The notes under the pieces are model-generated. The model did no database searches, had not been told where the DNA came from, and worked only from the letters and a program-made list of their open reading frames with translations. From an uncultured Acidobacteriia bacterium (lineage in GTDB: Bacteria; Acidobacteriota; Terriglobia; Bryobacterales; Bryobacteraceae), in contig CAIKAS010000011.1 in assembly GCA_903825445.1 (NCBI GenBank), forward strand, positions 1-64,000: DNA of 64,000 bases, given 5' to 3'. This document shows positions 32,744 to 49,819 of this stretch, piece by piece; within the stretch, counting starts at the first letter, position 1; each line of letters starts with the position of its first letter. The position numbers and the translations under genes were made by a program.

Positions 32744-32818
32744 GGCGCTATCGTCTAACGGTTAGGACGGAGCCCTCTCAAGGCTTAAATACGGGTTCGA
32801 TTCCCGTTAGCGCTACCA
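32744..32818 (+). tRNA. tRNA-Glu (CTC anticodon)
   Basis: A complete cloverleaf: acceptor stem GGCGCTA paired with TAGCGCT, D-arm ATCGTCTAACGGTTAGGAC, anticodon loop CTCTCAA giving CTC (reads GAG), T-arm ACGGG-TTCGATT-CCCGT and encoded CCA at 32816-32818. Its last 24 bases are repeated at 43101-43124. It is the integration target of the mobile element that follows and remains intact. Confidence 0.96.
32795..32818 (+). repeat. attL: 3' part of tRNA-Glu
   Basis: The left copy of the 24-bp core. It covers the T-loop side, acceptor 3' strand and CCA of the tRNA. Flanking bases on both sides differ from the right copy. Confidence 0.9.
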
Positions 32819-32842
32819 TGTTTCCAATTACTTACCGGTGCT

Positions 32843-32862
32843 GCGCTCACACGCGCTCACAC
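32843..32862 (+). repeat. Candidate left integrase arm sites
   Basis: GCGCTCACAC occurs twice in perfect tandem, 24 bases inside attL. A near-identical pair is at 42979-42999, close to attR, in the same orientation. Paired short direct repeats flanking the core are what tyrosine integrase arm-binding sites look like. Function not shown. Confidence 0.5.
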
Positions 32863-33288
32863 ATTTTCGGTTTGATGTGACGGTATCGCGGCGATGAATG
32901 CCATCACCACTACGATACCGACCGCAATGACTGAGCTACTCATTGAATTTCCCGCGAATGCGAAGGACGCCAAATGTTCGCAATTGAACCCGAATAAACT
33001 GTACGGCGATCCTATCTTCATCTCCGCCCGCGCAACGATGGCTTGCGCATGCTCCTGCGTGCCACGCTGGTGAAGCTGAATTTCACCGCCGCCAGCAAAT
33101 TCATACCAGTCTCCGACAACAACGCCGACGTCTTTGCAATTGTGAATGATTTCGACCGCGTAACCATCTCCGCTCCAGCACAAGCGTCGGACGATACCGT
33201 GGTGCCAAAGACCTAACGCAGGTATGTAAACCCGAACCCAGTCGCCGCTCGTGATCGGCTCGCCGGTTGAGTATGTCGGCCAGTTCAT
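32857..33288 (-). CDS. LRAT-like (permuted papain fold) protein with C-terminal membrane helix
   Basis: A 143-residue protein. It has GDWVRVYIPALGLWHHGIVRR with the likely catalytic His30, and LFGFNCEHLASFAF with Cys103, the hallmark NCEH motif of the LRAT/NlpC-P60 superfamily. A transmembrane helix follows (SVIAVGIVVVMAFIAAI, residues 119-135). Family members are acyltransferases, thioesterases or phospholipases acting at membranes. It lies four bases after the HTH-GrlR gene and is the last gene before the tRNA, a usual place for island cargo. An effector that attacks or modifies lipid is a reasonable guess, with the upstream gene as its controller. Confidence 0.82.
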   Translation of the reverse strand: MNWPTYSTGEPITSGDWVRVYIPALGLWHHGIVRRLCWSGDGYAVEIIHNCKDVGVVVGDWYEFAGGGEIQLHQRGTQEHAQAIVARAEMKIGSPYSLFGFNCEHLASFAFAGNSMSSSVIAVGIVVVMAFIAAIPSHQTENV

Positions 33289-33292
33289 GGAG

Positions 33293-33859
33293 TCATTCCA
33301 CCGGAAGTTCGCGCATGAATCGGTAACGTGCCGCTATCACATGACCCATCATCGTCTTTACCTGGGTTTCCCCGCTTTGCAACCGGGCATCGATGCCAGC
33401 CGTGGCGTCGACAGACCATTCATGAGGATGAGTTATGCCAAAAACGCTCGTGGCGTTTGCAGCAAACGAGAGCTTCAGCCGCAACTGAGCAACTCCGACC
33501 TGTTCATCGTACGTATAGTTACCGTCATACCTTCCTCCGAAAGCATCGCCCCCGTATGCCTTGCCGCCATCCAGAATGACTACACCTCGTCCCACTCCCG
33601 CTGATGAGGCAAATTCAACTTCATACATGCCGTCTCTCATATTTGACCTTCCTTTCCGTAAACGATTTAGCTCTGCTTGCCTCAGGCTCATAGGCGCGGC
33701 GGTGAGAACTCGCAGATATGCCTCAACGGTTCCGGGTACTGGCCGAGTTTCCATGATCCAGAGATTGACAGCCCGGGCTGTTACGCCTATCAATCGTGCG
33801 AAATCTGTCTGCGATAGCCCGAGATCAGAGATTGATGCACGTAGTTCGCTGCCGAGCAT
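33293..33859 (-). CDS. HTH (XRE-type) plus GrlR-like domain protein
   Basis: A 188-residue two-domain protein. Residues 5-55 form a Cro/CI-type HTH (GLSQTDFARLIGVTARAVNL). Residues 74-130 (MRDGMYEVEFASSAGVGRGV, then VILDGGKAYGGDAFGGRYDG) match the lipocalin-like GrlR fold, known from a negative regulator of type III secretion in enteropathogens that binds a ligand or protein. The C-terminal 50 residues are unassigned. It is followed after four bases by the LRAT-like gene, so it may sense a signal and control that effector. Upstream lie two direct repeats that could be its operator. Confidence 0.82.
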   Translation of the reverse strand: MLGSELRASISDLGLSQTDFARLIGVTARAVNLWIMETRPVPGTVEAYLRVLTAAPMSLRQAELNRLRKGRSNMRDGMYEVEFASSAGVGRGVVILDGGKAYGGDAFGGRYDGNYTYDEQVGVAQLRLKLSFAANATSVFGITHPHEWSVDATAGIDARLQSGETQVKTMMGHVIAARYRFMRELPVE

Positions 33860-33886
33860 AGAACAACATTCTCATAAAATAGAACA
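33858..33886 (-). promoter_or_regulatory. Candidate operator: ATAGAACA direct repeats
   Basis: ATAGAACA at 33858-33865 and again at 33879-33886, 21 bases apart (two helical turns) on the plus strand, right at the start of the HTH-GrlR gene. A minus-strand TTGACT (-35-like) lies just upstream, at 33894-33889. Autoregulation by the HTH protein is plausible. Confidence 0.4.
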
Positions 33887-34092
33887 GAAGTCAATATTTT
33901 TCTTGTGCATCCACTCCCGAGCGCCGACTTCGGGTGCGTAGGAATTCAAATCGCCTGATGCGCTGCCACGGGATAAATGGCGGGATGGTGGCGGCACGGA
34001 TGTCACCAAACCTGTTGTTCTTGACCGGGAGCAGGGGCTATAGCGGACTATGCCGGTCGAATACCGTGAGGGCCGGTTCGTTCCCAGTGCAA

Positions 34093-35304
34093 TTAGACAA
34101 CCTGAGAGCGGGGAGTGCGAGGCTGTTCGACTGGCCCTTGGTACTCCTCCCACTTTCTGGCTGCTTCCTTGTCGGCACCAGGGAGGGAGTGACCGTAGAT
34201 ATTTAGAGTTGTAGAAGTATGCGCATGACCCAGACGTTTTGACGCAACAGTCAGGGATACACCGCTGAGCAGGAGATGCGTGGCGTGAGTATGCCGCAGC
34301 GTGTGAAGGCTGCTGCCCTTCGGAAGGTTAAGTTTCCGGCACAGTAGACTGACTTGTGCGCTCACTGAGTCCGGCTTCAGAGGTGTCCCATCCGGGTTGC
34401 AGAATACAAGGTCCAGATCGGTTCGATACGTCGGCCCGAACTGGTCTCGCAGTGATTGTTGTTTCGCCCGGTGTCCCGCCAACATTACGGTGGCCGTTTC
34501 CGGTAGCCAGATCTTCCGGGGTTTATCGCTCTTCGTCCCCTTGAATTCCAGTCCTGCTCTGGTTTGAGATAACGATCTCGTGATTGACACCGAACTGTTA
34601 GCCAGATCTGACCACCGAAGTGCGAGCAATTCGCCACGTCTAGCACCGGTTGCAGCATCCAACGCCAGAAACGCCGACATGCCCCAGGTTGACATGGCGG
34701 CGTCAATGACCAGCCTCTGTTCTGACGGCAACATTACGGCTGCCTCACGGCGCACCGCCACGGGTGGGTCGCTAGCCGGAACCGGGTTGCTGGCGGTTAG
34801 TTCCCACTTGATTGCCTTGTTGTAGGCGCTCGAAATTACACCGGCGATATTGCGGACAGTTTTGGCGCTCAGTGGCCGTGGTGCCTTCGTCTTGCGATGG
34901 TGACCACCGGACTGGAGCAGTCGGTTCCACTCTTGCGACAGGTGCAGTGGTCGCACACCGCTCAGCGGCATTGCGAGCAGTGCGGGATTCAGATAGGCGG
35001 CCTGTTCACGGTACCGCTCGATCGTCTTGCTAGACAATCGACCTTCACAATGTTCCGTGAAGAACTGCTCCAGCATGTCACTGAGCGTCGTCGGCGACTG
35101 GACGACGGTACCAGTGGAGCCGCCTATTTCGTATTCCCGCTGAACTTCGATACGGCGTTGCGCTTCGGCTTGTGTTGCAGAACTCTTCGTCGCGAAACCG
35201 GACGCGGTGACCTGGTGTCGGCAAGCACGACCGGAGCCGGGCGCGTCGAAGGCATAGCTCCATACCTCCTTTCCACTCCTGTATTTTCGTTTCGTGATAG
35301 CCAT
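34093..35304 (-). CDS. int: Tyrosine integrase of the tRNA-Glu element
   Basis: A 403-residue phage-type integrase. An N-terminal arm-binding region (MAITKRKYRSGKEVWSYAFD) is followed by a SAM-like core-binding domain near 80-190. The catalytic domain has Arg in AATGARRGELLALRW, the HTLRHTHATHLL box and nucleophile Tyr in TLNIYGHSL. It is the last gene of the Rep-Xis-Int set and should catalyse integration into tRNA-Glu. About 1.3 kb, including the GrlR and LRAT-like genes, separates it from attL, so cargo has been inserted there or the layout differs from elements where int abuts att. Confidence 0.95.
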   Translation of the reverse strand: MAITKRKYRSGKEVWSYAFDAPGSGRACRHQVTASGFATKSSATQAEAQRRIEVQREYEIGGSTGTVVQSPTTLSDMLEQFFTEHCEGRLSSKTIERYREQAAYLNPALLAMPLSGVRPLHLSQEWNRLLQSGGHHRKTKAPRPLSAKTVRNIAGVISSAYNKAIKWELTASNPVPASDPPVAVRREAAVMLPSEQRLVIDAAMSTWGMSAFLALDAATGARRGELLALRWSDLANSSVSITRSLSQTRAGLEFKGTKSDKPRKIWLPETATVMLAGHRAKQQSLRDQFGPTYRTDLDLVFCNPDGTPLKPDSVSAQVSLLCRKLNLPKGSSLHTLRHTHATHLLLSGVSLTVASKRLGHAHTSTTLNIYGHSLPGADKEAARKWEEYQGPVEQPRTPRSQVV

Positions 35305-35344
35305 CGATCCTCTGGAACTGCCGCCAATAATACACGCCGAAATT

Positions 35345-35566
35345 TCAGTTCACGCACACCACCGGGAACCGGGAAGTGCCACACGTGCGTTCCCAATGCT
35401 CGTAGGCGTAACGAGTGACGATCCAACGACGGCCAAGTCGGATACCAGGGATGATGCCGCGTTCGAGCATGTCGTAGACGGTAATTCGACCGATGCCAAG
35501 ACGCTTAGCAATCTCTGGAATTGACAGGCGCCCGGACGGACTGTTCAGGATGTTTTCGGTTGGCAT
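35345..35566 (-). CDS. xis: Excisionase-type MerR-like HTH protein
   Basis: A small basic DNA-binding protein of 73 residues (ATG at 35566; GTG at 35569 also fits). The winged HTH of the excisionase/HTH_17 family is clear: LSIPEIAKRLGIGRITVYDM (in part), RGIIPGIRLGRRWIVTRYAYEHW. It starts on the last base of the Rep stop (TGATG) and precedes int by 40 bases. It probably directs excision. Confidence 0.9.
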   Translation of the reverse strand: MPTENILNSPSGRLSIPEIAKRLGIGRITVYDMLERGIIPGIRLGRRWIVTRYAYEHWERTCGTSRFPVVCVN

Positions 35567-36003
35567 CACGCATTGCCCCCGAAATCCAGTCGGCCTGTGT
35601 TAGAGCAGCCATTCTGGGCGACGTAAAATGAACCACCCTGCGATTTGTCATAGGGTACGATGTGAGCCTGCCCGAACTGAGCGTTGGCACGCCGAAGCCA
35701 CTTTGCCAGTACTAGGTGACCCACCTTGGAAACCAGAAAATGGCAATGGAGGTGTCCGCCAATCTCGCCGTACTCCCACGCGATAACCCAGCGGATCGGA
35801 TGGCCAGCGGCTGCCTCGATATCGTGAAGGAATCGGTTCACCGCCGTTACGGAGGGGCCACCCTTATGACGGGATGTAAGTGTTCCGAACCATGTCCAGT
35901 CGTCGAGATCCCGGATGTACCCGCCGTAATGTTCGACCTCTTCGCGAACCCGTGCTTCATCGTGGAGCCTAAATGTGAAATCGTCTTCTTGTTCCGTGAG
36001 CAT
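35566..36003 (-). CDS. HUH-type replication initiator-like protein
   Basis: A 145-residue protein starting at 36003 with a good Shine-Dalgarno (AAGGGAAG); the frame is open to 36036. Rolling-circle Rep motifs appear in order: motif 1 WFGTLTSR (38-45), a FLHDIE helix, the HUH motif in GGHLHCHFLV (His84-Leu-His86), and GGSFYVAQ with a candidate nucleophile Tyr127. It is short for a plasmid Rep but close to single-tyrosine HUH nucleases. It leads the Rep-Xis-Int set, so it may replicate the excised circle or nick DNA for transfer. Confidence 0.75.
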   Translation of the reverse strand: MLTEQEDDFTFRLHDEARVREEVEHYGGYIRDLDDWTWFGTLTSRHKGGPSVTAVNRFLHDIEAAAGHPIRWVIAWEYGEIGGHLHCHFLVSKVGHLVLAKWLRRANAQFGQAHIVPYDKSQGGSFYVAQNGCSNTGRLDFGGNA

Positions 36004-36356
36004 AAATACTTCCCTTGGGGGACATTGAACGGACACACAGGTTACTGCAATGCTGAAAAGTCACCGCGACGAACTCCGGTGCATTCATGCAACCGGACAC
36101 CATGACGACGGGCCATTCGCACGAACGCACGATGTAATCGTGCATGCGGTCGGGCGACGTTTAACCAGCAACGAGGGCTTATGCGCGATGAATGCGCAGG
36201 AGCCGTTAATTGTTAGCTGGATAATCACTATCTCTCTACACTCTCTCCTTTGAAGACAAGTATTGACCGGATGCCGAGGGATAGTGGGGGAAGTTCCCGA
36301 GGGATATTCAGCCCAAAAGGGATGAACAGGGAGAATGCGGGACGTCTCCCGTTCGA
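36004..36356. other. Intergenic region upstream of the HUH gene
   Basis: 353 bases without a convincing gene. A plus-strand frame at 36050-36253 lacks a ribosome site and any recognisable feature. The region lies between the HTH protein gene and the Rep-Xis-Int set on the same strand, so it probably holds their promoter and operators. I could not define boxes with confidence. Confidence 0.5.
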
Positions 36357-37130
36357 TCAGTCGTTGGGGACGTCGGCGGGCTTTACCTTGAGGGCTCCCG
36401 CTATAGCTATGAGCGATTTCTCGTGGACACTCTTGCCGCTGCGGACACGCCGGACGGTCTTGGGGTCGACGCTGGCTCTGTCGGCTAGATGTCGGATGCT
36501 GAAGTTCATACCCAGCCTGTGACTGTCCAACCATTTCGCTCGGTTGGGGAACGGCACCGATTTACCCGACACGCCGGTTCCTTTCAAATTCTGTGGAGGA
36601 TTTGCCAGGCTAGCGGTCGGCTGCTGAAGCTTTTTGATAATCCAGTTGGTTGCGCACGAACGCACCGTCGCTTTGATTGGCATACGGTGGGGACGTACAA
36701 AATTCTCGATCCCGTATTCGCCGAATTCCGAACGCCATCCGCCGAGATTGACCAGTTGACCGCTCTCCCGTGCGGCTCTCTCCCAAACGCCACCGGGCTT
36801 CACGATGGCATTGACAACTGAATCACCAATTGCTGCCAATAGCCGCCTTCTGCCCTGCTTCCCCGCAGCAAAAATCCGGCTCGACTGTCGTATAGCCTCC
36901 GCGTCAAATGCGAGCGTCGCGTAGGTCTGAAAGAACGGTAAAAGATCCATCGATGATGGAAGGCGACCTATCTGCTGCTCGACAAACCCCGTTCGCCAGC
37001 ATGCACGGAAGAAGGACGTTATATCCGCCACCAATTGCTGTCTGGCCAAGAGTGTCGCTGCAACAGCGACCTTCCTTGCGACGACGGTCGGAGTTGGTAC
37101 TAACAGCGGCGGATTAGTAGCGGTTCCCAA
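36357..37130 (-). CDS. HTH-containing regulator with long N-terminal region
   Basis: A 257-residue protein. The C-terminal 60 residues are a Cro/CI-type HTH (FSIRHLADRASVDPKTVRRV then RSGKSVHEKSLIAIAGALKV). The preceding 190 residues are not recognised; they have helical segments and several Trp. The HTH at the end rather than the start is unusual. By position it may regulate the Rep-Xis-Int set downstream. Confidence 0.75.
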   Translation of the reverse strand: MGTATNPPLLVPTPTVVARKVAVAATLLARQQLVADITSFFRACWRTGFVEQQIGRLPSSMDLLPFFQTYATLAFDAEAIRQSSRIFAAGKQGRRRLLAAIGDSVVNAIVKPGGVWERAARESGQLVNLGGWRSEFGEYGIENFVRPHRMPIKATVRSCATNWIIKKLQQPTASLANPPQNLKGTGVSGKSVPFPNRAKWLDSHRLGMNFSIRHLADRASVDPKTVRRVRSGKSVHEKSLIAIAGALKVKPADVPND

Positions 37131-37239
37131 TATCCATCAGCTTAACTTGCGCGACATCTACTCCGCGAATCGACTCATGCGAATCGGATCTTGTCGCAAG
37201 AAGCCTGACAGCGTCAATACGTTTTCCAACGCTGACGAG

Positions 37240-37932
37240 TTAGGCCTTTAACGATGGCCACGATTGGCCGTTCCTCGGCGCATCACCTGAAGACAGTATT
37301 CGGTTGACGACGATGCCATGCCACCGACGCCCAGTTCGGGTGGGGATGCCTTCGGAGGAGAGTCGAGCGGCGATACGATCGAACCCCAGACCTTCTGCGC
37401 GCAGTTCTTCCATGCGCTGTATGGCGGTGTCCTCTCCCGCGTAGTAGCCGAACGGCTTCCGACCTTCACACCGGCCTTCGCTCTCCCTCTTCCGTATCCG
37501 AGCACCGCGTAACTTCGCGACTATCTGGTTCTTGTCGTACTGGGCGACAGCACCGAGAAGTTGTCGCATAAGAACACGGGTGGGATCATTCGCCATCAGA
37601 TCCGGCTCCGCCGTCGAGATAAGGGTGAACCCGTGCTTGTGCAGATCCGCGATGGCAGCCTCCTGAACCATAAGGTCACGGGCCAGTCGGTCCAGTTTTT
37701 CAATCAGGATGGTGCGAACGCCGTTGCCGTGCAGCAGGGCCATGAGTTCGCACCATGCGGGGCGGTCCATGTTTTCGACGGTGCCGCTGACGCCTTCTTC
37801 CCTGAATACACGGACGATCTTGATGTCGTGGGCAGCCACATAGTCGCGAATGGCCTTCAACTGACGGGGGAACCCGTCGCCGTCGATCTGGCCTTTACCG
37901 GAAACCCGAAGATATGCATAAGCCTTTTCCAT
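37240..37932 (-). CDS. Serine recombinase (resolvase/invertase family)
   Basis: A 230-residue recombinase. The catalytic domain has AYLRVSGKGQ with Ser11, FREEGVSGTVENMDRP, and LIEKLDRLARDLMVQE. A Recombinase-type linker (RKPFGYYAGEDTAIQRMEEL) and a short C-terminal HTH (SSEGIPTRTGRRWHGIVVNRIL in part) follow. It is shorter than large serine integrases. It may resolve multimers, invert DNA or be the remnant of a second insertion inside the element. No inverted-repeat sites were found by eye. Confidence 0.92.
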   Translation of the reverse strand: MEKAYAYLRVSGKGQIDGDGFPRQLKAIRDYVAAHDIKIVRVFREEGVSGTVENMDRPAWCELMALLHGNGVRTILIEKLDRLARDLMVQEAAIADLHKHGFTLISTAEPDLMANDPTRVLMRQLLGAVAQYDKNQIVAKLRGARIRKRESEGRCEGRKPFGYYAGEDTAIQRMEELRAEGLGFDRIAARLSSEGIPTRTGRRWHGIVVNRILSSGDAPRNGQSWPSLKA

Positions 37933-38141
37933 GCCACCCAGGCTACACGCTCTGGCGGCGAAAGATCAATACAGATTTCTCTGGATAAGGTGTTATGCAG
38001 ATGGTCGTTCAAAGCTGCTTCTTAACGCGGTGCTTCACCTAAAACGTGAAGCTAAGGGCCGCATCGTACCGACGGTTTGGCATCTCTGCGTATATAATCT
38101 CTGCGTACGGGGCCCCACGTCGGCCCGAAAGGAAGCAGAAC

Positions 38142-38850
38142 ATGAGAACCAAGCAAAACTCCTTTGGGCATGCCGTCGCTGCCCTGTTGTTTGTGGCGGC
38201 AGTACCAGACATTCAGGCGGACAGTTTTACGTACACCTACACTGGGCCGGACTTCACCTTCCTTTAACGCAGGCGGGGTTTCCCAGCCTTTAAGCACCTC
38301 CGACTTCATCACCGCTTCGCTGACGTTCGCGAGTCCTCTTCCTGACGATTTTTCCGATGTTTACAGCGGTGGATCGAGCGTCTTAACGGGCACACTCCCT
38401 ACGCCGCAATGGGACCCGGCGCTTCTGGGCTGGAATATATCCGACCAAGTATCAACTCTCTCGTCTAGTGAAGGCGACATTCTAAACGGCGTCCTTGTTA
38501 CGACCGACGACGCCGGGAACATAATTGCGTGGAGTCTGGAGGGATCGTCTTACACTTTAACGACCGGCCCTTCGTACCTCCCGCCGATTCTCACGCAAAT
38601 CGAACTCACAACGAATTGGCGTAACGGTTATCAGGGTTTTGCGGACGGCTCATTTTTTTCGAATTACCAGACCGCAGCCGAGTGGGTGGGGGAAGTCGAC
38701 GGTCCCGGCTCTTGGTCGGCTGGAGTCGAGTCTACTTCGGCACCGGAGCCCTCGTTTACTTGGTTGCTATTCGTGGTGTTGGCGATCTTGGCAAGGAACC
38801 AGTACCTTTCCTACAGATTCGGTACGGATCCTTTGTTATCAATGCTTTAA
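38142..38850 (+). pseudogene. Frameshifted PEP-CTERM protein gene
   Basis: A gene split between two frames. From the ATG at 38142 (Shine-Dalgarno AAGGAAG) it encodes a signal peptide (MRTKQNSFGHAVAALLFVAA) and TYTYTGPDFTFL, then a stop near 38266. The body continues in the next frame as SFNAGGVSQPLSTSDFITAS up to 38850. That part ends with a PEP motif (SAPEPSFTWL), a hydrophobic stretch and a basic tail. The frame change falls within CACCTTCCTTTAAC, about 38254-38268, and fits one extra base. The cause may be a true mutation or a sequencing error. It is on the mobile element. Confidence 0.78.
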
Positions 38851-38887
38851 AAGTTCGACGACTTCTACCGCGGCATCTTATGGCCAG

Positions 38888-39196
38888 TCAGTGTCGCGTC
38901 TTTTTCGTCCGCTCCCTCTTGACAGGGATCGGCTGCGGATCACTGATAGCCCGTCCCAGGTTGATTACCGAAATCCCCGGTGGTGCTTTGAACCGTGGGT
39001 CGTCTGGATTAGCCCGAAGAATGTCCCGCCAGTTCGCGTTCACTTCGTCGGTCAGGTCGATGACGGATGCGGGATCAATCCGACTGAGGTCCTCCAGCGT
39101 CCTGATTGGGCGTGAATCCGGTGGCGTCGACGGGGCTGGTTTGGACCCTTTCGATCTTCCTCGGTTTTGACCCGTTTTCCTCTTTGGCTCTGCCAT
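38888..39196 (-). CDS. Small basic protein, unrecognised
   Basis: A 102-residue frame with a basic, Pro/Ser-rich N-terminus (MAEPKRKTGQNRGRSKGSKP), a more ordered middle (IDLTDEVNANWRDILRAN) and a basic end (VKRERTKKTRH). It competes with plus-strand frames here, but its composition is the most protein-like. No Shine-Dalgarno is evident. Function unknown. Confidence 0.4.
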   Translation of the reverse strand: MAEPKRKTGQNRGRSKGSKPAPSTPPDSRPIRTLEDLSRIDPASVIDLTDEVNANWRDILRANPDDPRFKAPPGISVINLGRAISDPQPIPVKRERTKKTRH

Positions 39197-39697
39197 GCCG
39201 GAATTGTAGTTGCTGGAACCGGAGAATTCCAGCCCTTACTTCCCAGATTGAACCCGTCTGGAGACCCGGTTGTAGCAGGTCGTTCCGTCCGGTAATCTGC
39301 TAACTTCGTCACAATCCTCTTGCCTCGACCGTTCGCAATTCCGTGCTTTCTAAGTCCGCATTTTTCGCGAACCCATGCGCTTCTATTGGCGAAACGTTGC
39401 CTGTCGGATTGGATGAGTTTGATTTTTTGCGGCAAAAATAACCCGGCCTCAAAGACTGTGCTAATCGTCATTCCCTGGAGTTTCCGGCGGTGCTAATCGT
39501 GAGTTCGGGACGCCGTTCAGTGCCCGTCCGGGCCTCCGTGGAACAGTGGGAAACCGGGTAGCAGGTTGGATCGACTCCCGGGTATCAGAACGCGGACGAT
39601 TCTGCCTGCGTAGTGCCCCGTGGAATGTCACCAGAACGACTCCCGGCAACCGGAGGCTGGGATGGCCGCCGACGGATTCCGCTTCGTCCCCTCGTCC
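39197..39697. other. Region without a supported gene
   Basis: About 500 bases between the small basic protein and the Cro/CI-type regulator. A minus-strand frame at 39052-39471 starts MTISTVFEAGLFLPQKIKLI and is not excluded, but it overlaps the small protein and reads as low-complexity after residue 70. No tRNA, repeat or terminator is evident. Confidence 0.4.
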
Positions 39698-39928
39698 CTA
39701 CTTCTCCGACTGCTGGAACATCGTCCCTATCGATACGCCGAATGCGTTGGCTAGCTTAACCAGAGTCCGGACGGAGGGGTTACGACTTCCGCGTTCGAGA
39801 TCGGCTATATAGCTCCGCTGGATAGAGGACCGTTCTGCCAACTTTTCTTGTGACCACTCCCGCGATTGACGAAGATTCTTGATCTGTCTGGATAGAAGCC
39901 GCTTCGCTTGGCTTTCGGAGATCGGCAA
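39698..39928 (-). CDS. Cro/CI-type (XRE) transcriptional regulator
   Basis: A 76-residue single-domain repressor: IKNLRQSREWSQEKLAERSS then IQRSYIADLERGSRNPSVRT, a classic HTH_3 with its recognition helix, followed by LVKLANAFGVSIGTMF. It is divergent from the surface protein gene (83 bases from its start at 40012) and may regulate it or the element. Confidence 0.93.
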   Translation of the reverse strand: MPISESQAKRLLSRQIKNLRQSREWSQEKLAERSSIQRSYIADLERGSRNPSVRTLVKLANAFGVSIGTMFQQSEK

Positions 39929-40011
39929 CTTCTAATCGTTTCGAATAAAGTACCCGACCGTTGTATGATCGCAGTGACATCAAGAAATGTGAGAAGATTT
40001 TGAGGACGCTT

Positions 40012-42744
40012 ATGATACACGGCTGTCTGATCACTCTGGCAGGGACACTACTGTTCGTGGCGCAGCCACTGTCGGCCACGACGTTGACCATCAGGAGTGG
40101 AAACGGGTCCATCGGCGGCAACGACTCACTCGTTCATGTATTAACCGGCCCGACGACCGGTGCGTTCGGCCATGTCTTTGGCCCAAGCGACTTTGCGGCG
40201 GCCCAGAGCAGCCCAGAAGCCTTCATCGTAGTTCCAAACGCTCTTTGGATTGCGGGCCTAAGTGCCGATCCGTCTGCCAAATGGGTCAGCTCCGTCAACA
40301 ACAGCCTCTTCGGGAATACCGCCTTGTACGCGGTGAGCTTTCAGATTTCGAGTGCATTCACTGCCGCAACACTGGCGGTGAACTATGCGGTTGATGACGG
40401 CATCGGGGACGGCTACGGGGACAGCTACGGGAACAGTGGCATTTATCTCAATGGCTCGGCGGTCTGCGGGGGTTCACTCCCAATCGGTTTCAGTCAGGAA
40501 CACCCAGTCAATTGCGGTGACGTTACGCAATTTCTCCATACGGGTACCAACTGGCTCTACATCGAGGATGGAAACGCAGCCGGGGCAGCGGGATTATTGT
40601 TTTCGGCGACGGTCGCGACTACCGCCGCAACCGGGCCAATAATTACCGTGCCGGGTACCGCCATGCCGTGGCTTTATGGCAAGACGGCAGGGTCGCTGAA
40701 CTATAACTCTCAATTCGGCCTAGGTGATGGGACGAACCCCATCGTCGTTTCTGCGGCGAATGGTGTCGCGTTCACACCGGGAGGCATTGCCACGGTCACA
40801 TATATGAGCGGCAAAGTGAACATCGGCCCTGACCTCCAACTTGCATTTGTTGATGCCAATGGAATCTCTCAAGCGGCCAACAACACGAACCAAGGTGCAA
40901 TCGGAAAGGCGGCACCCAGCAACTACATGAGTCCCTCAACGTATCCGATCTTTTACGGGGAGTTGGTTGGGACCTTTGCCGATGCAACCGGCTCAATCAT
41001 AGGGACTCCATTCGCGATTGGCGATGGGCCGAAGCCGCTGATAATCCCGTCTGGAGCGAGCCAGCTTCAATTGGGCGTCAACGATGATGCCTACTACAAC
41101 AACGTCGGCTCATGGTCAGTTCAGGTGACAACGGCTTTGCAGCCGCCGGTCCTTTCGAACAACGGAGTCGTGAATTCTACGACGCTTGCTCCCGGTGGGC
41201 CGGTGGCTCCCGGCAGTATTTCCAGTCTATTGGGGACATTCCCTGTTGGCACACCGTCGCTGTCACCGGCTACGGGGTCGAACTGGCCCACTAGCCTCGG
41301 CGGACTTTCCGTGCAAGTGGGTGGAACTCCGGCACCGCTCTTTTACGTTTCCAGCAGTCTTGTACATTTTCAGGTGCCGTGGGAATTGGCTGGGTTGATG
41401 CAAGCTGCGGTAACAGTGACATCAGGTGGGCAAACGAGCACGCCGCAGACGGCAAACTTAGCAACGTACGCACCGGGCCTTTACGCTATAAACGGTCAAG
41501 GAACCGGGCAGGGCGCTGTTCTGGATGCCTCGTACCAATTGGTCACCGCTTCCAACCCGACAAAGCCGGGCGCGTACATCCAGCTTTACGGGACAGGTCT
41601 TGGTCCCGTGAGCAACCAGCCTGCTACCGGGACGCCAGACCCGTTGAGCCCGTTCGCAACCACTCCCGCCCACCCCGGCGTGACAATCGGGGGAATTACC
41701 GCGCCGGTACTGTTTTCAGGACTACTGCCTACGGGCATCGGATATTACCAAATAAACGTGCAAGTGCCAGATGGAGTGTCGTCAGGCAATTCGGTGCCGG
41801 TGATTCTCTCAATTGGCGGAATCACATCCAACACAGTGACGATTGCAGTCCAATCACCCGTGCCTTCCAATCCAGTACCGACTATTACGAGTCTCTCCCC
41901 ATCTTCGGCTCTGTCGGGAAGCGGTCCCTTGACGGTCACGATAAGCGGCACCGGTTTCGTCGCGACCTCGACGGTAACGTTCTGCACTGTCCCGCATACG
42001 GCAACTTTCGTTGACGGAAGCCACTTACAGATCACATTGAGCGTAACTGATCTCGCAGGAACGGGAGCGTGTGCTGTCGTTGTCAGTAATCCTGCACCCG
42101 GCGGTGGTAGCTCGTTTCCGATGGCCTTCACCGTAGCGCCAATAAATCCCAAACCTGCGATAATCAGTCTTACGCCGTCTTCCGCACCGGAGGGGAGCAG
42201 TTCTTCTCTGACGGTAACGATCAGCGGGAGTGGCTTCCTGCCCTCATCAACCGTGACTTTCTGCACCCTGACGCACTCGGTTACCTTTGTTGACAGTAGC
42301 CATTTGCAGATCACGTTGACGGCGTTTGATGTGGGAGGAACGGGAGCTTGTGCCGTCGTTGTCAGCAATCCCGCACCCGGTGGGGGCGTATCCGCTGCGG
42401 CGATCTTTACAGTCACCGCTCCCGTGGGACTGGGTGGGACATGGTTAGGATCCTGGAATTCAAGTGAGTACCTCTTTGTCTTCGGCTCGTTGTCGGCGAA
42501 TTTGACGCAATCTGGTAGCGTGCTCACGGGGACACTGACATTTGCAGGATCTCCCTGTTTTTCAAGCGGAACGCTATCTGGGTCGGTCAACGGTTCCAAC
42601 ATCTCGGCAACGATCAACTTCGGGGCTGGACAGACAGCTGCGATCAATGGAGCAGCGAACAGCTCGAACACCGCGATCAACGCAAAGTACACGCTTTATG
42701 GCGGGGCCTGTACCGATAGCGGAACCATCTCACTATCGCGTTAG
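40012..42744 (+). CDS. Large exported surface protein with TIGR03437 and two IPT/TIG domains
   Basis: A 910-residue secreted protein. The start at 40012 (MIHGCLITLAGTLLFVAQPL signal peptide) has GAGG upstream; a start at 39961 is less likely. An N-terminal beta-rich domain comes first. Residues about 380-615 match the Solibacter-type C-terminal domain TIGR03437 (LATYAPGLYAINGQGTGQGA, IQLYGTGLGPVSNQPATGTP, YYQINVQVPDGVSSGNSVPV). Two near-identical IPT/TIG immunoglobulin-like domains follow (about 620-705 and 710-800, ITSLSPSSALSGSGPLTVTI). A final domain of 100 residues ends the protein. There is no visible anchor. Likely adhesion or matrix role. Its presence on the mobile element shows that lineage-specific surface proteins move horizontally. 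Confidence 0.9.
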   Translation: MIHGCLITLAGTLLFVAQPLSATTLTIRSGNGSIGGNDSLVHVLTGPTTGAFGHVFGPSDFAAAQSSPEAFIVVPNALWIAGLSADPSAKWVSSVNNSLFGNTALYAVSFQISSAFTAATLAVNYAVDDGIGDGYGDSYGNSGIYLNGSAVCGGSLPIGFSQEHPVNCGDVTQFLHTGTNWLYIEDGNAAGAAGLLFSATVATTAATGPIITVPGTAMPWLYGKTAGSLNYNSQFGLGDGTNPIVVSAANGVAFTPGGIATVTYMSGKVNIGPDLQLAFVDANGISQAANNTNQGAIGKAAPSNYMSPSTYPIFYGELVGTFADATGSIIGTPFAIGDGPKPLIIPSGASQLQLGVNDDAYYNNVGSWSVQVTTALQPPVLSNNGVVNSTTLAPGGPVAPGSISSLLGTFPVGTPSLSPATGSNWPTSLGGLSVQVGGTPAPLFYVSSSLVHFQVPWELAGLMQAAVTVTSGGQTSTPQTANLATYAPGLYAINGQGTGQGAVLDASYQLVTASNPTKPGAYIQLYGTGLGPVSNQPATGTPDPLSPFATTPAHPGVTIGGITAPVLFSGLLPTGIGYYQINVQVPDGVSSGNSVPVILSIGGITSNTVTIAVQSPVPSNPVPTITSLSPSSALSGSGPLTVTISGTGFVATSTVTFCTVPHTATFVDGSHLQITLSVTDLAGTGACAVVVSNPAPGGGSSFPMAFTVAPINPKPAIISLTPSSAPEGSSSSLTVTISGSGFLPSSTVTFCTLTHSVTFVDSSHLQITLTAFDVGGTGACAVVVSNPAPGGGVSAAAIFTVTAPVGLGGTWLGSWNSSEYLFVFGSLSANLTQSGSVLTGTLTFAGSPCFSSGTLSGSVNGSNISATINFGAGQTAAINGAANSSNTAINAKYTLYGGACTDSGTISLSR

Positions 42745-42978
42745 CCCTCTGACTTCAGCGTCAGAAATGAGATACTTCGACCCTCAAAAGCCCAAAATGA
42801 GACCTCTTCATTCCCGGCCTGAGCGCCGGAGCCGGGGACATCGGCAACGGCATGTCTCCCAGCCCTCTGAACCGCTGCGTGTTGGTCACGGAGTGTCGTA
42901 AAGACTGTCGTTCTTCTCGTGGGTGCGGGGGTAACCGCCGGAGTAGGACTGGGACGGCCCAGTCCGTTGGGGGCTATG

Positions 42979-42999
42979 CGCTCACACCGCGTTCACACC
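42979..42999 (+). repeat. Candidate right integrase arm sites
   Basis: GCGCTCACAC then C then GCGTTCACAC: the same 10-mer as at 32843-32862, repeated with one extra base and one mismatch, 102 bases inside attR. Confidence 0.5.
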
Positions 43000-43100
43000 A
43001 CAGCGTGCCAGAAGGGGTCCCACACAAAACGCCGTGACAATCTAATCCCAGAATGAACAACTTAGACTGAACTGAACCAGACCGAGCCAGCGGTTAACCC

Positions 43101-43124
43101 GTTCGATTCCCGTTAGCGCTACCA
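43101..43124 (+). repeat. attR: 24-bp copy of the tRNA-Glu 3' end
   Basis: Identical to 32795-32818. No D-arm or anticodon arm precedes it, so it is not a second tRNA gene but the right junction of the integrated element. Confidence 0.9.
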
Positions 43125-47254: not shown

Positions 47255-49819
47255 TCAGGCGCCTGTCGCCGCCCCGATGTTCGGCAAACCTGAACTGACA
47301 GGCCGATTCGCTGAGTCTCCCAGTTCAGAGAGCAGTGGAGCCAGACCGGATTCGTACTTTCGCCAGCGCTGCATGGAAGTGCGGAACAAGGGCTTGCGAA
47401 CCTGAGCGGCGCTGGCAGTCTTAACAGGTCGTTTACTGTTATGGAAGCTGACGCAGCGATTGTCCCAGGGCAACCCGCAATGTTCAATCATTCGTCGTGC
47501 CTGACCCTCGATGTCATCCACCACGTCCTCGTACGACACATCGAGCACGGTTCCCTCAGGAAGAACGGAGCGCCAGTGGTTCATCATGCCCTGGTAACGG
47601 CGATAGCAACGCCCCAACTCTCCCAGGTCGTAGCTGTACGGAACTCCTGCGGTGAACAATTTGGAGTAGCAGGACACGCAGGTATCAACAGGGTCCCGCA
47701 TGGTGTGGATGATCTTCGCGTTTGGCAGCGCGAGTCGTATCAGCCCGATGTAGAGAAAATTGGCGGGCAGCTTATTGGTAATGAACGTCTTTCCCGCTTC
47801 CAGCGCGGGTAGCCTCCCGAGATAGGCCCGGCCCAGTGCGGCTAGCGCGTCGGAATCAAGACCGGGAACGCAGTCCGGGTACGGCAATGACGCCCCACTC
47901 GTGCGTAAGATATCCTCGATGGCCGACTCAAAGGCCATGAGTTCGCCTCCGCCCTGGATCTGCGGATGGCTGGCAAGTATCTGTTCGATCAGAGTGCTGC
48001 CTGAACGCGGCATCCCGAGAACGAAAATCGGAGCCCGGGATGGATCGCCTTCTCCCTGGTAACGGGCACACAGGCTCTTGTCGAATGTCATGGCAACATC
48101 TTCAAAGAGTTTGGCGGCTACTGTTTCGTCGTAGAGAATCTGTCGTCGTTTCAGATCGTTTCCCTGAACCATGTGCTGAAAGGCCCGCTCGTAATCTTTG
48201 CTGTCTTCAAAGGCTTTAGCCAGAGCAAAATGGATGTACAGCGCCTTGTGGTCCGGGAGATGACCGTTCGCCAGCAGATCTTCCAACACCGTCAGGTCAG
48301 CATCGCCTGGATGGCAGGTCTTGATTGCCGAGCGATTATAGTGGGCCTCCGCGTAGTCCGGCCGGATAGAAATTGCCTGCTCGTAGTGCGCTGAGGCCTT
48401 CTCAAGGTCGCCGCGCTCCATGAAGATATTTCCCAGGCTGTTGTGGGCCTCGGGTTGGTTAGGATTGGCCGAAAGTGCGTGGAGGCAGTGCGCGATCGCA
48501 GTTTCATCTAACCCTTCCGCCGCCAGCGCAATGCCCAGGTTACTGTGTGCCTCCGCGTAGTCCGGCCGAATACTGATCGCGTGCTCGTAGTGTCTTCTCC
48601 CCTCCCCTGATCTCCCCTGGGCGCAGAACGCGTTGCCCAGGTTATTGTGAGCTTCTGCGTGCCCGGAATTGATCGTGATCGCTCGTTGATAGCACGTGAT
48701 CGCATCGCCGCCATTGCCTTTCGCGAAAAGGGCCGAACCCAGATTATTGTACGCATCGGCATAATCCGGTTTAACAGTCACGGCTCGCAGGTAATGCGCG
48801 ATCGCATCATCCAGCCTGCCTTGCTCGCTGAGCAGGATTCCCAGGTTGTTATGCGCCTCCGCGAAATCCGGCTGGATGGCGAGTGCACGCGCATAATGCA
48901 ACATCGCTTCGGCAGACCTGCCCTGCGCCTTGAGTGCGGCGCCAAGATTATTGTGCGCATTGGCGTGGCCCGGATCGAGCGTGCATGCACGCTCACAGTG
49001 TGTAATCGCCTCCGCGAACTTACCCTGTGCCGTGAGCGCCATGCCCAAATTGCTGTGAGCGTCCGCATATTCTGGCCTGATCAAGACTGCCTGCCGGTAA
49101 TGCTTTCCAGCATCCTCATGATTGCCAAGCTCGCCAAGAATGATTCCGAGATTGTTGTGAGCTTCGGCGTGATCCGGCTGAATGGCGAGCGCGCGCTCAA
49201 AATGCATTCGCGCTTCGCTGGCCCGGCCGATCGACTTCAGCGCCGCGCCGAGATTGTTATGTGTGTTGGCCCGTCCGGGCGCAAGCGTGGAGGCTCGCTC
49301 ATAGTGATCTATGGCTTCCGCGTATTTACCCTGGGCGGCCAGCACGATCCCGAGGTTGCCATATGCGTCGGCATAGTCTGGCTTCAGCAGGAGAGCGTGC
49401 CGGTAATGCCCCGCCGCATCTTCGTACTTATTCTGACCGGCAAGAAGAACTCCCAGGTTGTTATGCGCTTCGGCAAAATTTGGATTCAGCCGAAGCACCT
49501 GCCGATAACGTGCAGCTGCATCGCTGACCTTGCCCTGGGCCGCCAGCGCATTACCCATACTGAAATGGTACGAAGGGTTGTCACTCACGACTCGGATCGC
49601 GCGACCGATGAATTCAACCGCAGTTTCGAAGCGGCCGTTTTGGCAAGCGATGAGCCCGATTAAATGCAGGCTGTCGGCATGACGAGGCTGGAGGGCCAGG
49701 ACAGCGTGAAAACCTCGTTCAGCCTCCGCCGGGCGGCCAGCCTGATAGTGCCGAATGGCGTCATGAAACATTCCCGGTACTATCTGACCCTGAAAAGCCT
49801 GGCCCTGCATTTGGCGCAT
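47255..49819 (-). CDS. TPR-repeat sulfotransferase
   Basis: An 854-residue protein. About 14 tetratricopeptide repeats of 34 residues fill residues 15-510, most with the AHNNLGI(A)L...AIxHYxRAL pattern. A sulfotransferase domain follows (about 580-830). Its 5'-phosphosulfate loop is APIFVLGMPRSGSTLIEQIL and its second PAPS segment is IIHTMRDPVDTCVSCYSKLF. Such fusions sulfate proteins or glycans, with the TPR as recognition arm. The near-identical repeats explain the repetitive DNA at 48300-49600. Confidence 0.93.
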   Translation of the reverse strand: MRQMQGQAFQGQIVPGMFHDAIRHYQAGRPAEAERGFHAVLALQPRHADSLHLIGLIACQNGRFETAVEFIGRAIRVVSDNPSYHFSMGNALAAQGKVSDAAARYRQVLRLNPNFAEAHNNLGVLLAGQNKYEDAAGHYRHALLLKPDYADAYGNLGIVLAAQGKYAEAIDHYERASTLAPGRANTHNNLGAALKSIGRASEARMHFERALAIQPDHAEAHNNLGIILGELGNHEDAGKHYRQAVLIRPEYADAHSNLGMALTAQGKFAEAITHCERACTLDPGHANAHNNLGAALKAQGRSAEAMLHYARALAIQPDFAEAHNNLGILLSEQGRLDDAIAHYLRAVTVKPDYADAYNNLGSALFAKGNGGDAITCYQRAITINSGHAEAHNNLGNAFCAQGRSGEGRRHYEHAISIRPDYAEAHSNLGIALAAEGLDETAIAHCLHALSANPNQPEAHNSLGNIFMERGDLEKASAHYEQAISIRPDYAEAHYNRSAIKTCHPGDADLTVLEDLLANGHLPDHKALYIHFALAKAFEDSKDYERAFQHMVQGNDLKRRQILYDETVAAKLFEDVAMTFDKSLCARYQGEGDPSRAPIFVLGMPRSGSTLIEQILASHPQIQGGGELMAFESAIEDILRTSGASLPYPDCVPGLDSDALAALGRAYLGRLPALEAGKTFITNKLPANFLYIGLIRLALPNAKIIHTMRDPVDTCVSCYSKLFTAGVPYSYDLGELGRCYRRYQGMMNHWRSVLPEGTVLDVSYEDVVDDIEGQARRMIEHCGLPWDNRCVSFHNSKRPVKTASAAQVRKPLFRTSMQRWRKYESGLAPLLSELGDSANRPVSSGLPNIGAATGA

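Follow-up and report, generated by a model that had tools for sequence, protein, structure and literature searches.

The closest described systems are the AICEs, integrative elements of actinomycetes. The extract of PMC3218068 used here characterizes them by a tyrosine or serine integrase with att sites, usually in a tRNA 3′ end, by a Tra protein of the FtsK/SpoIIIE type, by a Rep of the RepSA, RepAM or Prim-Pol kind and by a host belonging to the Actinomycetales. In the Streptomyces AICE pSAM2, repSA, int and xis are arranged in an operon under one activator (extract of PMC8584621), which makes a functional analogy to the cassette described below a natural one. A small Rep with a catalytic tyrosine is also known from SIRV1, where it is the product of ORF119 (PMC4187194).

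Little has been described of the mobile elements of Acidobacteriota, which are abundant in soil and difficult to cultivate. In the open-licence literature on AICEs and pSAM2, HUH proteins, inoviruses and elements of Acidobacteria, Solibacter and Bryobacter, no title or abstract opening described elements of the present kind in Acidobacteriota; a study of gene acquisition in Solibacter (PMC3174227) could mention some. The window analyzed here, a stretch of 64,000 nt from an uncultured Acidobacteriia bacterium (contig CAIKAS010000011.1), carries a rep-xis-int cassette whose parts are familiar and whose layout is found repeatedly in a phylum not expected to have it. We consider excision by Int and Xis, combined with rolling-circle replication started by Rep, the best reading of this locus, at a probability of about 0.6.

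The cassette is part of a tRNA-integrated element

The last 24 nt of a tRNA-Glu(CTC) gene are repeated exactly at 43101-43124, the two copies being 10,306 bp apart. The cassette is therefore part of a 10.3-kb element (about 32819-43124) integrated into the 3′ end of this tRNA gene, a frame that the initial annotation had overlooked. When the tRNA was compared with 200 mononucleotide shuffles of the 15 kb downstream, the longest match was 14 nt. The features of the element are as follows:

32744-32818, plus strand: tRNA-Glu (CTC), integration target (ARAGORN)
32795-32818, plus strand: attL, the last 24 nt of tRNA-Glu(CTC) (exact repeat search)
32843-32862, plus strand: two tandem copies of GCGCTCACAC, left-end candidate arm sites for the integrase (word search; putative function)
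32857-33288, minus strand: 143-aa protein with LRAT-like domain, passenger (PF04970 2.5e-5, barely above cut-off)
33293-33859, minus strand: 188-aa HTH protein (weak HTH matches below cut-off)
34093-35304, minus strand: int, tyrosine integrase of 403 aa (PF00589 8.8e-19)
35345-35569, minus strand: xis, 74-aa excisionase-type HTH protein (PF12728 HTH_17 8.9e-10; NCBIfam TIGR01764 2.6e-9)
35566-36003, minus strand: rep, 145-aa HUH endonuclease, overlapping xis (PF23343 1.3e-7; conserved H86, H88 and Y127; fold match 2x3g)
36127-36143, no strand assigned: hairpin of the rep leader (7-bp stem, 3-nt loop), weak origin candidate (DNA folding; read from sequence)
36357-37130, minus strand: 257-aa protein with C-terminal Cro/C1-type HTH (HTH_3 below cut-off; PHROG repressor 1.6e-4)
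37240-37932, minus strand: 230-aa serine recombinase, Recombinase domain cut short (PF00239 2.8e-27; PF07508 partial)
38164-38850, plus strand: 228-aa ORF, possible secreted passenger (no Pfam match)
39698-39928, minus strand: 76-aa Cro/C1-type regulator (HTH_3 1.8e-18)
39961-42744, plus strand: 927-aa passenger with TIG repeats and Solibacter C-terminal domain (PF01833; TIGR03437 1.8e-58)
42978-42998, plus strand: GCGCTCACAC and, after it, GCGTTCACAC, right-end candidate arm sites (word search; putative function)
43101-43124, plus strand: attR, identical to attL over 24 nt (exact repeat search)

On both strands of the 64-kb window, the 10-bp word GCGCTCACAC occurs at 32843, 32853 and 42978 only. 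Its copies inside both ends are placed like integrase arm sites and may function as such; a shared word as long (11 nt counting the neighboring base) was found in 9 of 2,000 random stretch pairs. In relatives from the same genus the spot after tRNA-Glu is often occupied by a different tandem repeat of about 10 nt, as judged by eye, and these differing repeats would fit arm sites that vary along with their integrase. The GC content of the element is 0.561, compared to 0.586 and 0.581 for the flanks, a value that was equally low in 3.2% of 3,000 random windows of the same length.

The search for an empty site of the window element itself found none. In G462, tRNA-Glu lies behind the same upstream gene, the DNA beyond is not clearly alike and a different gene comes next; G403 and G447 have the right-flank gene, with no tRNA on the stretches examined. 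Copies of the tRNA-Glu 3′ end are themselves frequent: G466 has a second one 52 kb from the tRNA (contig C66, 25936-26021 and 78450-78480), and further copies are found in G459, G461, G462, G468 and G435. Judging from these repeated copies, tRNA-Glu looks like an integration hot spot in the genus.

Rep is a small HUH endonuclease of family PF23343

The ATG was preferred as start of rep over a GTG at 36036 because it has AAGGGAAG a short way upstream. At its other end, the junction with xis reads GCGTGATGCC, in which the rep stop codon TGA overlaps the ATG of xis (TGATG), as the initial annotation had pointed out. Its description of Rep as a 145-residue HUH protein with the motif GGHLHCHFLV and Tyr127 was equally accurate, and the match to PF23343 (REP_ORF2-G2P; 32.3 bits) lies above the curated cut-off of 27.8. 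The excisionase and the tyrosine integrase follow rep on the minus strand at the coordinates given there, and the three genes are probably co-transcribed.

H86, H88 and Y127 are kept in all 19 rows of an alignment of Rep homologues, so that the conservation of the HUH residues, on which the initial annotation had made its proposal depend, is borne out. The Lys or Arg three residues after the Tyr (motif 3) is present in 17 of the 19 rows, the exceptions being the window protein (Gln130) and that of G754 (Asn). The window Rep is shorter than every other row but one, a 134-aa frame of G709 that is cut by the contig end.

A predicted model of Rep, obtained from a 3-row alignment (pLDDT 73, pTM 0.71), matched the SIRV1 ORF119 Rep best (PDB 2x3g; Z 9.5, 106 residues, 2.9 Å, 16% identity). 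The next rows were ribosomal protein S6 at Z 8.0 and below, and other HUH Reps, with Z of 7.0 to 7.7, were tied with S6, so that 2x3g only was counted. Given these S6 rows and a Foldseek search with the model that returned no E-value below 0.001, the fold evidence for Rep taken by itself is moderate. The best match is a small Rep like the window protein, but one of an archaeal virus with a linear genome. As the matching chain has 116 residues, the earlier suggestion that Rep is a 'minimal nickase' appears plausible on the basis of the model.

Up to E 1, PF23343 was the only Pfam family matched by Rep, with no match to RepAM (DUF3631) or Prim-Pol. The same result led us to reject an assignment as an IS200/IS605-type Y1 transposase. 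No relatives were found by tblastn with the window Rep in plasmids and phages, by tblastn with the Rep of a related element (L093, see below) in phages, or in viral contigs searched with the single Rep protein, a 5-row Rep alignment and the L093 ATPase. A sequence search of the PDB with Rep gave no match either, and the 5-row alignment, when run against genome contigs, returned two loci only, both in the metagenome-assembled genome (MAG) RSWS6.

HUH proteins act as Reps and also as relaxases, and integrative mobilizable elements often have no transfer genes of their own. The window element, in which no transfer gene was recognized, could accordingly be read as such an element, nicked by Rep as its relaxase and transferred between cells by conjugation functions that are encoded outside it. 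Pfam, however, puts Rep in PF23343 and in no relaxase family up to E 1, and none of the 11 ORFs of the element that were scanned matched a relaxase family. We regard a mobilizable element of this type as distinctly unlikely.

Under the preferred reading, replication by Rep would start at a nick site, which the initial annotation had proposed to seek as a hairpin near 36004-36356. A hairpin is present there, the weak 7-bp stem at 36127-36143, and the region 36037-36260 folded as DNA with z −2.53 (4 of 200 shuffles equally good). The search for a rolling-circle origin of the window element yielded hairpins only and no origin.

Likeness to and differences from AICEs

The window element and pSAM2 have in common a tyrosine integrase acting on a tRNA 3′ end and the grouping of genes for an HUH Rep, Xis and Int (extracts of PMC3218068 and PMC8584621). 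They differ in that the window contig carries no FtsK/SpoIIIE Tra, that Rep has 145 aa and belongs to PF23343, and that the host is a member of the Acidobacteriota. When compared with the AICE definition in the extract of PMC3218068, the element has the integrase and att site (PF00589 Int, tRNA-Glu repeat). For Rep, the comparison covered the RepAM and Prim-Pol kinds through Pfam up to E 1, which gave PF23343 and neither of these two. The host is of the same family as the Bryobacteraceae MAG RSWS6, and the element itself encodes the Solibacter domain TIGR03437. The initial annotation had seen no translocase, and a six-frame search of the whole genome for FtsK/SpoIIIE (PF01580) agrees with this, giving three places, none of them on the contig of the window.

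With no FtsK/SpoIIIE gene on the contig and a host outside the Actinomycetales, the element is not an AICE as defined in that extract. The likeness to AICEs and pSAM2 drawn by the initial annotation thus holds for the integrative element and its pSAM2 gene set and not for AICE membership. By analogy, the element would work like the replication-integration half of an AICE.

The layout recurs in Acidobacteriota

Used as a query, the single Rep protein found 1 of 396 genomes in a sample of the phylum, the window's own, and 3 of 237 in the family, namely the window's, G514 (two copies) and G460, where the match is weak and covers 34 residues within a long unrelated frame. PF23343 was detected in 7 of the 396 phylum genomes, in five of them above the cut-off. 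The 5-row Rep profile identified 15 rep loci in 14 of 399 genomes of the class, which comprise the window and 14 other neighborhoods; Rep, Xis and Int were marked in these with profiles built in this analysis.

At 8 of the 15 loci, Rep is followed by Int on one strand, with or without Xis between them (window, G817, G816, G631, G779, G648, G754 and G803), so the cassette order is no one-off in the phylum. Xis stands between the two in three of them (window, G817 and G648). A tRNA gene adjoins Int or lies near it at six of the eight ordered loci (Glu, Pro, Asp, Met, Met and Val); the window tRNA is 1.3 kb from Int and separated from it by two genes. As to the other seven loci, Int precedes Rep in G869, G679 and G880, Rep lies on the opposite strand at both loci of G694, and no Int was present on the stretch examined in G745 and G709, the Rep of the latter being at a contig end.

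Other searches added eight loci, three of which fit the order: G036 (tRNA-Met), G147 (tRNA-Val; its Rep is frameshifted and Xis was not seen) and L093 (tRNA-SeC). The order in G119 is Int, Xis, Rep; a circle of RSWS6 has no Int; G092 showed none on the stretch examined; and G171 and G178 gave a weak PF23343 match that the Rep profile built here did not detect. An att repeat was found at 5 of 13 tRNA-linked loci, a set that takes in three loci without the order (G880 and both of G694) and one without Rep (G187). The repeats measure 24 nt in the window, 28 nt in L093, 49 nt in G631, at least 45 nt in G754 and 50 nt in G803, an ambiguous copy that falls within a second tRNA-Val call. At the remaining eight loci, no att repeat of at least 14 nt was present on the stretch examined.

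An element of 5.0 kb was observed in tRNA-Asp (L113, 6399-11437; 49-nt att repeat). Besides Rep and Int it holds an ATPase with 36% identity to the L093 enzyme, a gene of winged-HTH-like type and one of 152 aa without Pfam match. The 152-aa product presumably resembles SpoVG.

Filled and empty sites of a related element in RSWS6

Two relatives come from RSWS6 (G514), a MAG of the same family as the window host; two G514 contigs match the RSWS6 records with full identity. Its contig C139 (6,826 bp) carries a rep-xis-int element in tRNA-SeC (L093, JAPWUP010000202.1), with a flank overlap of exactly 127 nt at each end, and the exact empty site of 226 bp is present in the same MAG (C345, 19608-19833). 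In our reading, an assembly graph with k = 127 branched at the att sites, which the 127-nt overlaps reflect. Either the element was lost in some cells or strains differed in the sample.

L093 shares with the window element the orientation of rep-xis-int towards the tRNA, a homologous Rep and an att repeat, of 28 nt in one and 24 nt in the other. It differs in its size of 6.6 kb, in having a packaging-type ATPase and two small genes between rep and xis, and in its Int, which is only 31% identical to that of the window over 159 aa. The second relative is a 3,293-bp contig (L092/L043, JAPWUP010000345.1) with identical 127-nt ends, which make it a circle of 3,166 bp. Besides a packaging-type ATPase the circle encodes an HUH Rep, which is the nearest to that of the window (35-37% identity); no integrase was seen on it. 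L093, whose site is present both empty and filled in a single assembly, and the small Rep circle together offer a concrete test system for the coupling of excision and replication.

The two RSWS6 elements, otherwise unlike, share a 26-nt word (25 of 26 positions; L092 1309-1334, L093 3415-3440) about 250 to 340 bp before rep, which we propose as a candidate origin. In the window and in 19 other loci tried, this word had at least seven mismatches. The ATPases of both elements are 54% identical to each other and related to viral packaging ATPases (STIV B204 6e-5, Thermus phage phiKo 1e-4); for the tRNA-SeC element, this likeness was noted at 1355-2032 (L093/L044). No capsid gene was recognized among the scanned ORFs of L093; the element may represent a satellite or an analogue of AICEs.

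The name of PF23343 refers to phage-type Reps, and together with these ATPases it raises the possibility that the window element derives from a small phage, or is a satellite of one, and spreads in its particles. Yet of the four RSWS6 proteins compared (ATPase, Rep, Xis and Int), Rep and Int alone have a match in the window element, and no capsid or Zot-type gene was found in 11 of its ORFs with Pfam or in 9 with PHROGs. A phage-derived or satellite element of this kind seems very unlikely to us. An inovirus in particular was rejected for the window element, of which none of the 11 scanned ORFs matched Zot, as it was for the RSWS6 elements, whose ATPase had no Zot match.

The integrase lineage and the gene before xis

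Four of the 18 other genomes of the genus (G466, G468, G460 and G461) have integrases near tRNA-Glu(CTC) that share 54-56% identity with the window Int. The G468 integrase is 7.5 kb from the tRNA and that of G461 is partial. In G460 the orthologous gene (C39, 4-1167), at a contig end, has one TGA in frame, and its element may have lost self-excision. The initial annotation had suggested a phylogeny of the three proteins; for Int, a 23-row tree from which G460 was left out places the window protein in the tRNA-Glu clade (support 100/99). This clade lies inside a group of nine that has no other Rep-linked row (98/99), away from the remaining Rep-linked integrases; the non-Rep rows were picked for likeness to the window Int, so the clustering of labels is partly by design and the placement of the window protein is not.

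Context was readable in G466 and G468 only, the contigs of G460 and G461 ending at int. These two elements share with that of the window the integrase clade (100/99), the target tRNA, a homologous xis that overlaps int, and tandem repeats inside the left end. They differ in the gene at the rep position, which overlaps xis and is a 328-aa DUF3991/Toprim gene in G466 and a 110-aa gene without family in G468; the Rep profile had no match on the 19-kb stretches of either. With other genes at the rep position in two Int relatives, the slot before xis looks exchangeable. On the simplest reading of these sequences, rep was placed there in the line of the window, or was replaced in the others.

The same two relatives bear on a reading in which only Int and Xis still function and the element moves unreplicated, with Rep a decaying or repurposed passenger before a tRNA-Glu int-xis module. 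The int-xis pair beside other genes, the Gln in motif 3 and the short length of Rep would agree with this. Rep has nevertheless retained an open frame, a ribosome-binding site, the xis overlap and intact His and Tyr residues, and the G754 protein likewise does without Lys/Arg while belonging to an att-flanked element. We judge a passenger role for Rep unlikely.

Since the window Int belongs to the tRNA-Glu clade and stands apart from the other rep-linked integrases, we read the layout, among relatives sought in Acidobacteriota, as a probable modular assembly and not as AICE descent. An actinobacterial origin of the whole cassette is, within the same scope, a less simple reading: the nearest Int relatives found come from the genus itself and lie near a tRNA-Glu too, and the Rep relatives found are from Acidobacteriota. 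That an AICE-like rep-xis-int set occurs here with an integrase of another lineage suggests that the link between excision and rolling-circle copying is a general solution, assembled more than once.

Proposed cycle of excision and replication

In the cycle we favor for the window element, Int and Xis would recombine the two 24-bp att copies, helped by the arm sites in each end, to give a circle. Rep would be made in coupling with Xis through the stop/start overlap and would nick the circle via Tyr127, with the HUH pair holding the metal. Host polymerase and helicase would then copy the nicked circle by the rolling-circle mode, and the excised copy could be kept or multiplied before re-integration.

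Several lines of evidence argue for this cycle: the att repeat at the tRNA end, the arm-like words, intact int, xis and rep genes with their overlap, the HUH and Tyr residues in all 19 rows, the PF23343 family, the small-Rep fold match, the recurrence of the order (8/15, 6/8 with a tRNA), the att repeats at 5/13 loci, the empty and integrated forms of a relative in one MAG and the occurrence of the nearest Rep on a 3,166-bp circle. Our confidence was lowered by the Gln in motif 3 and by the lack of an origin, an empty site and a transfer gene. The rarity of Rep (1/396) and the orthologous tRNA-Glu integrases beside other genes were also counted against it.

More tentatively, and with more doubt than belief, we propose that Acidobacteriota harbor a class of tRNA-integrated elements of their own, small in size (about 5-10 kb) and equipped with a PF23343 HUH Rep, often Xis, Int and in some cases a packaging-like P-loop ATPase, as an independent counterpart of AICEs. 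The gene before xis would be a swappable cartridge (HUH Rep, DUF3991/Toprim or others) that is translationally coupled to excision, so that copying would take place only after the element has left the chromosome.

Other genes of the element and the window

Besides the cassette, the element encodes a serine recombinase with a full resolvase domain (37240-37932), perhaps the relic of a second integration system within it. The 228-aa product of 38164-38850 is presumably PEP-CTERM-like, as judged by eye. PADLOC gave generic HTH matches only, all to the 76-aa regulator. Elsewhere in the window, 102-bp repeats at 48336-49479 lie inside an 854-aa ORF on the minus strand (47255-49819) and appear TPR-like by eye.
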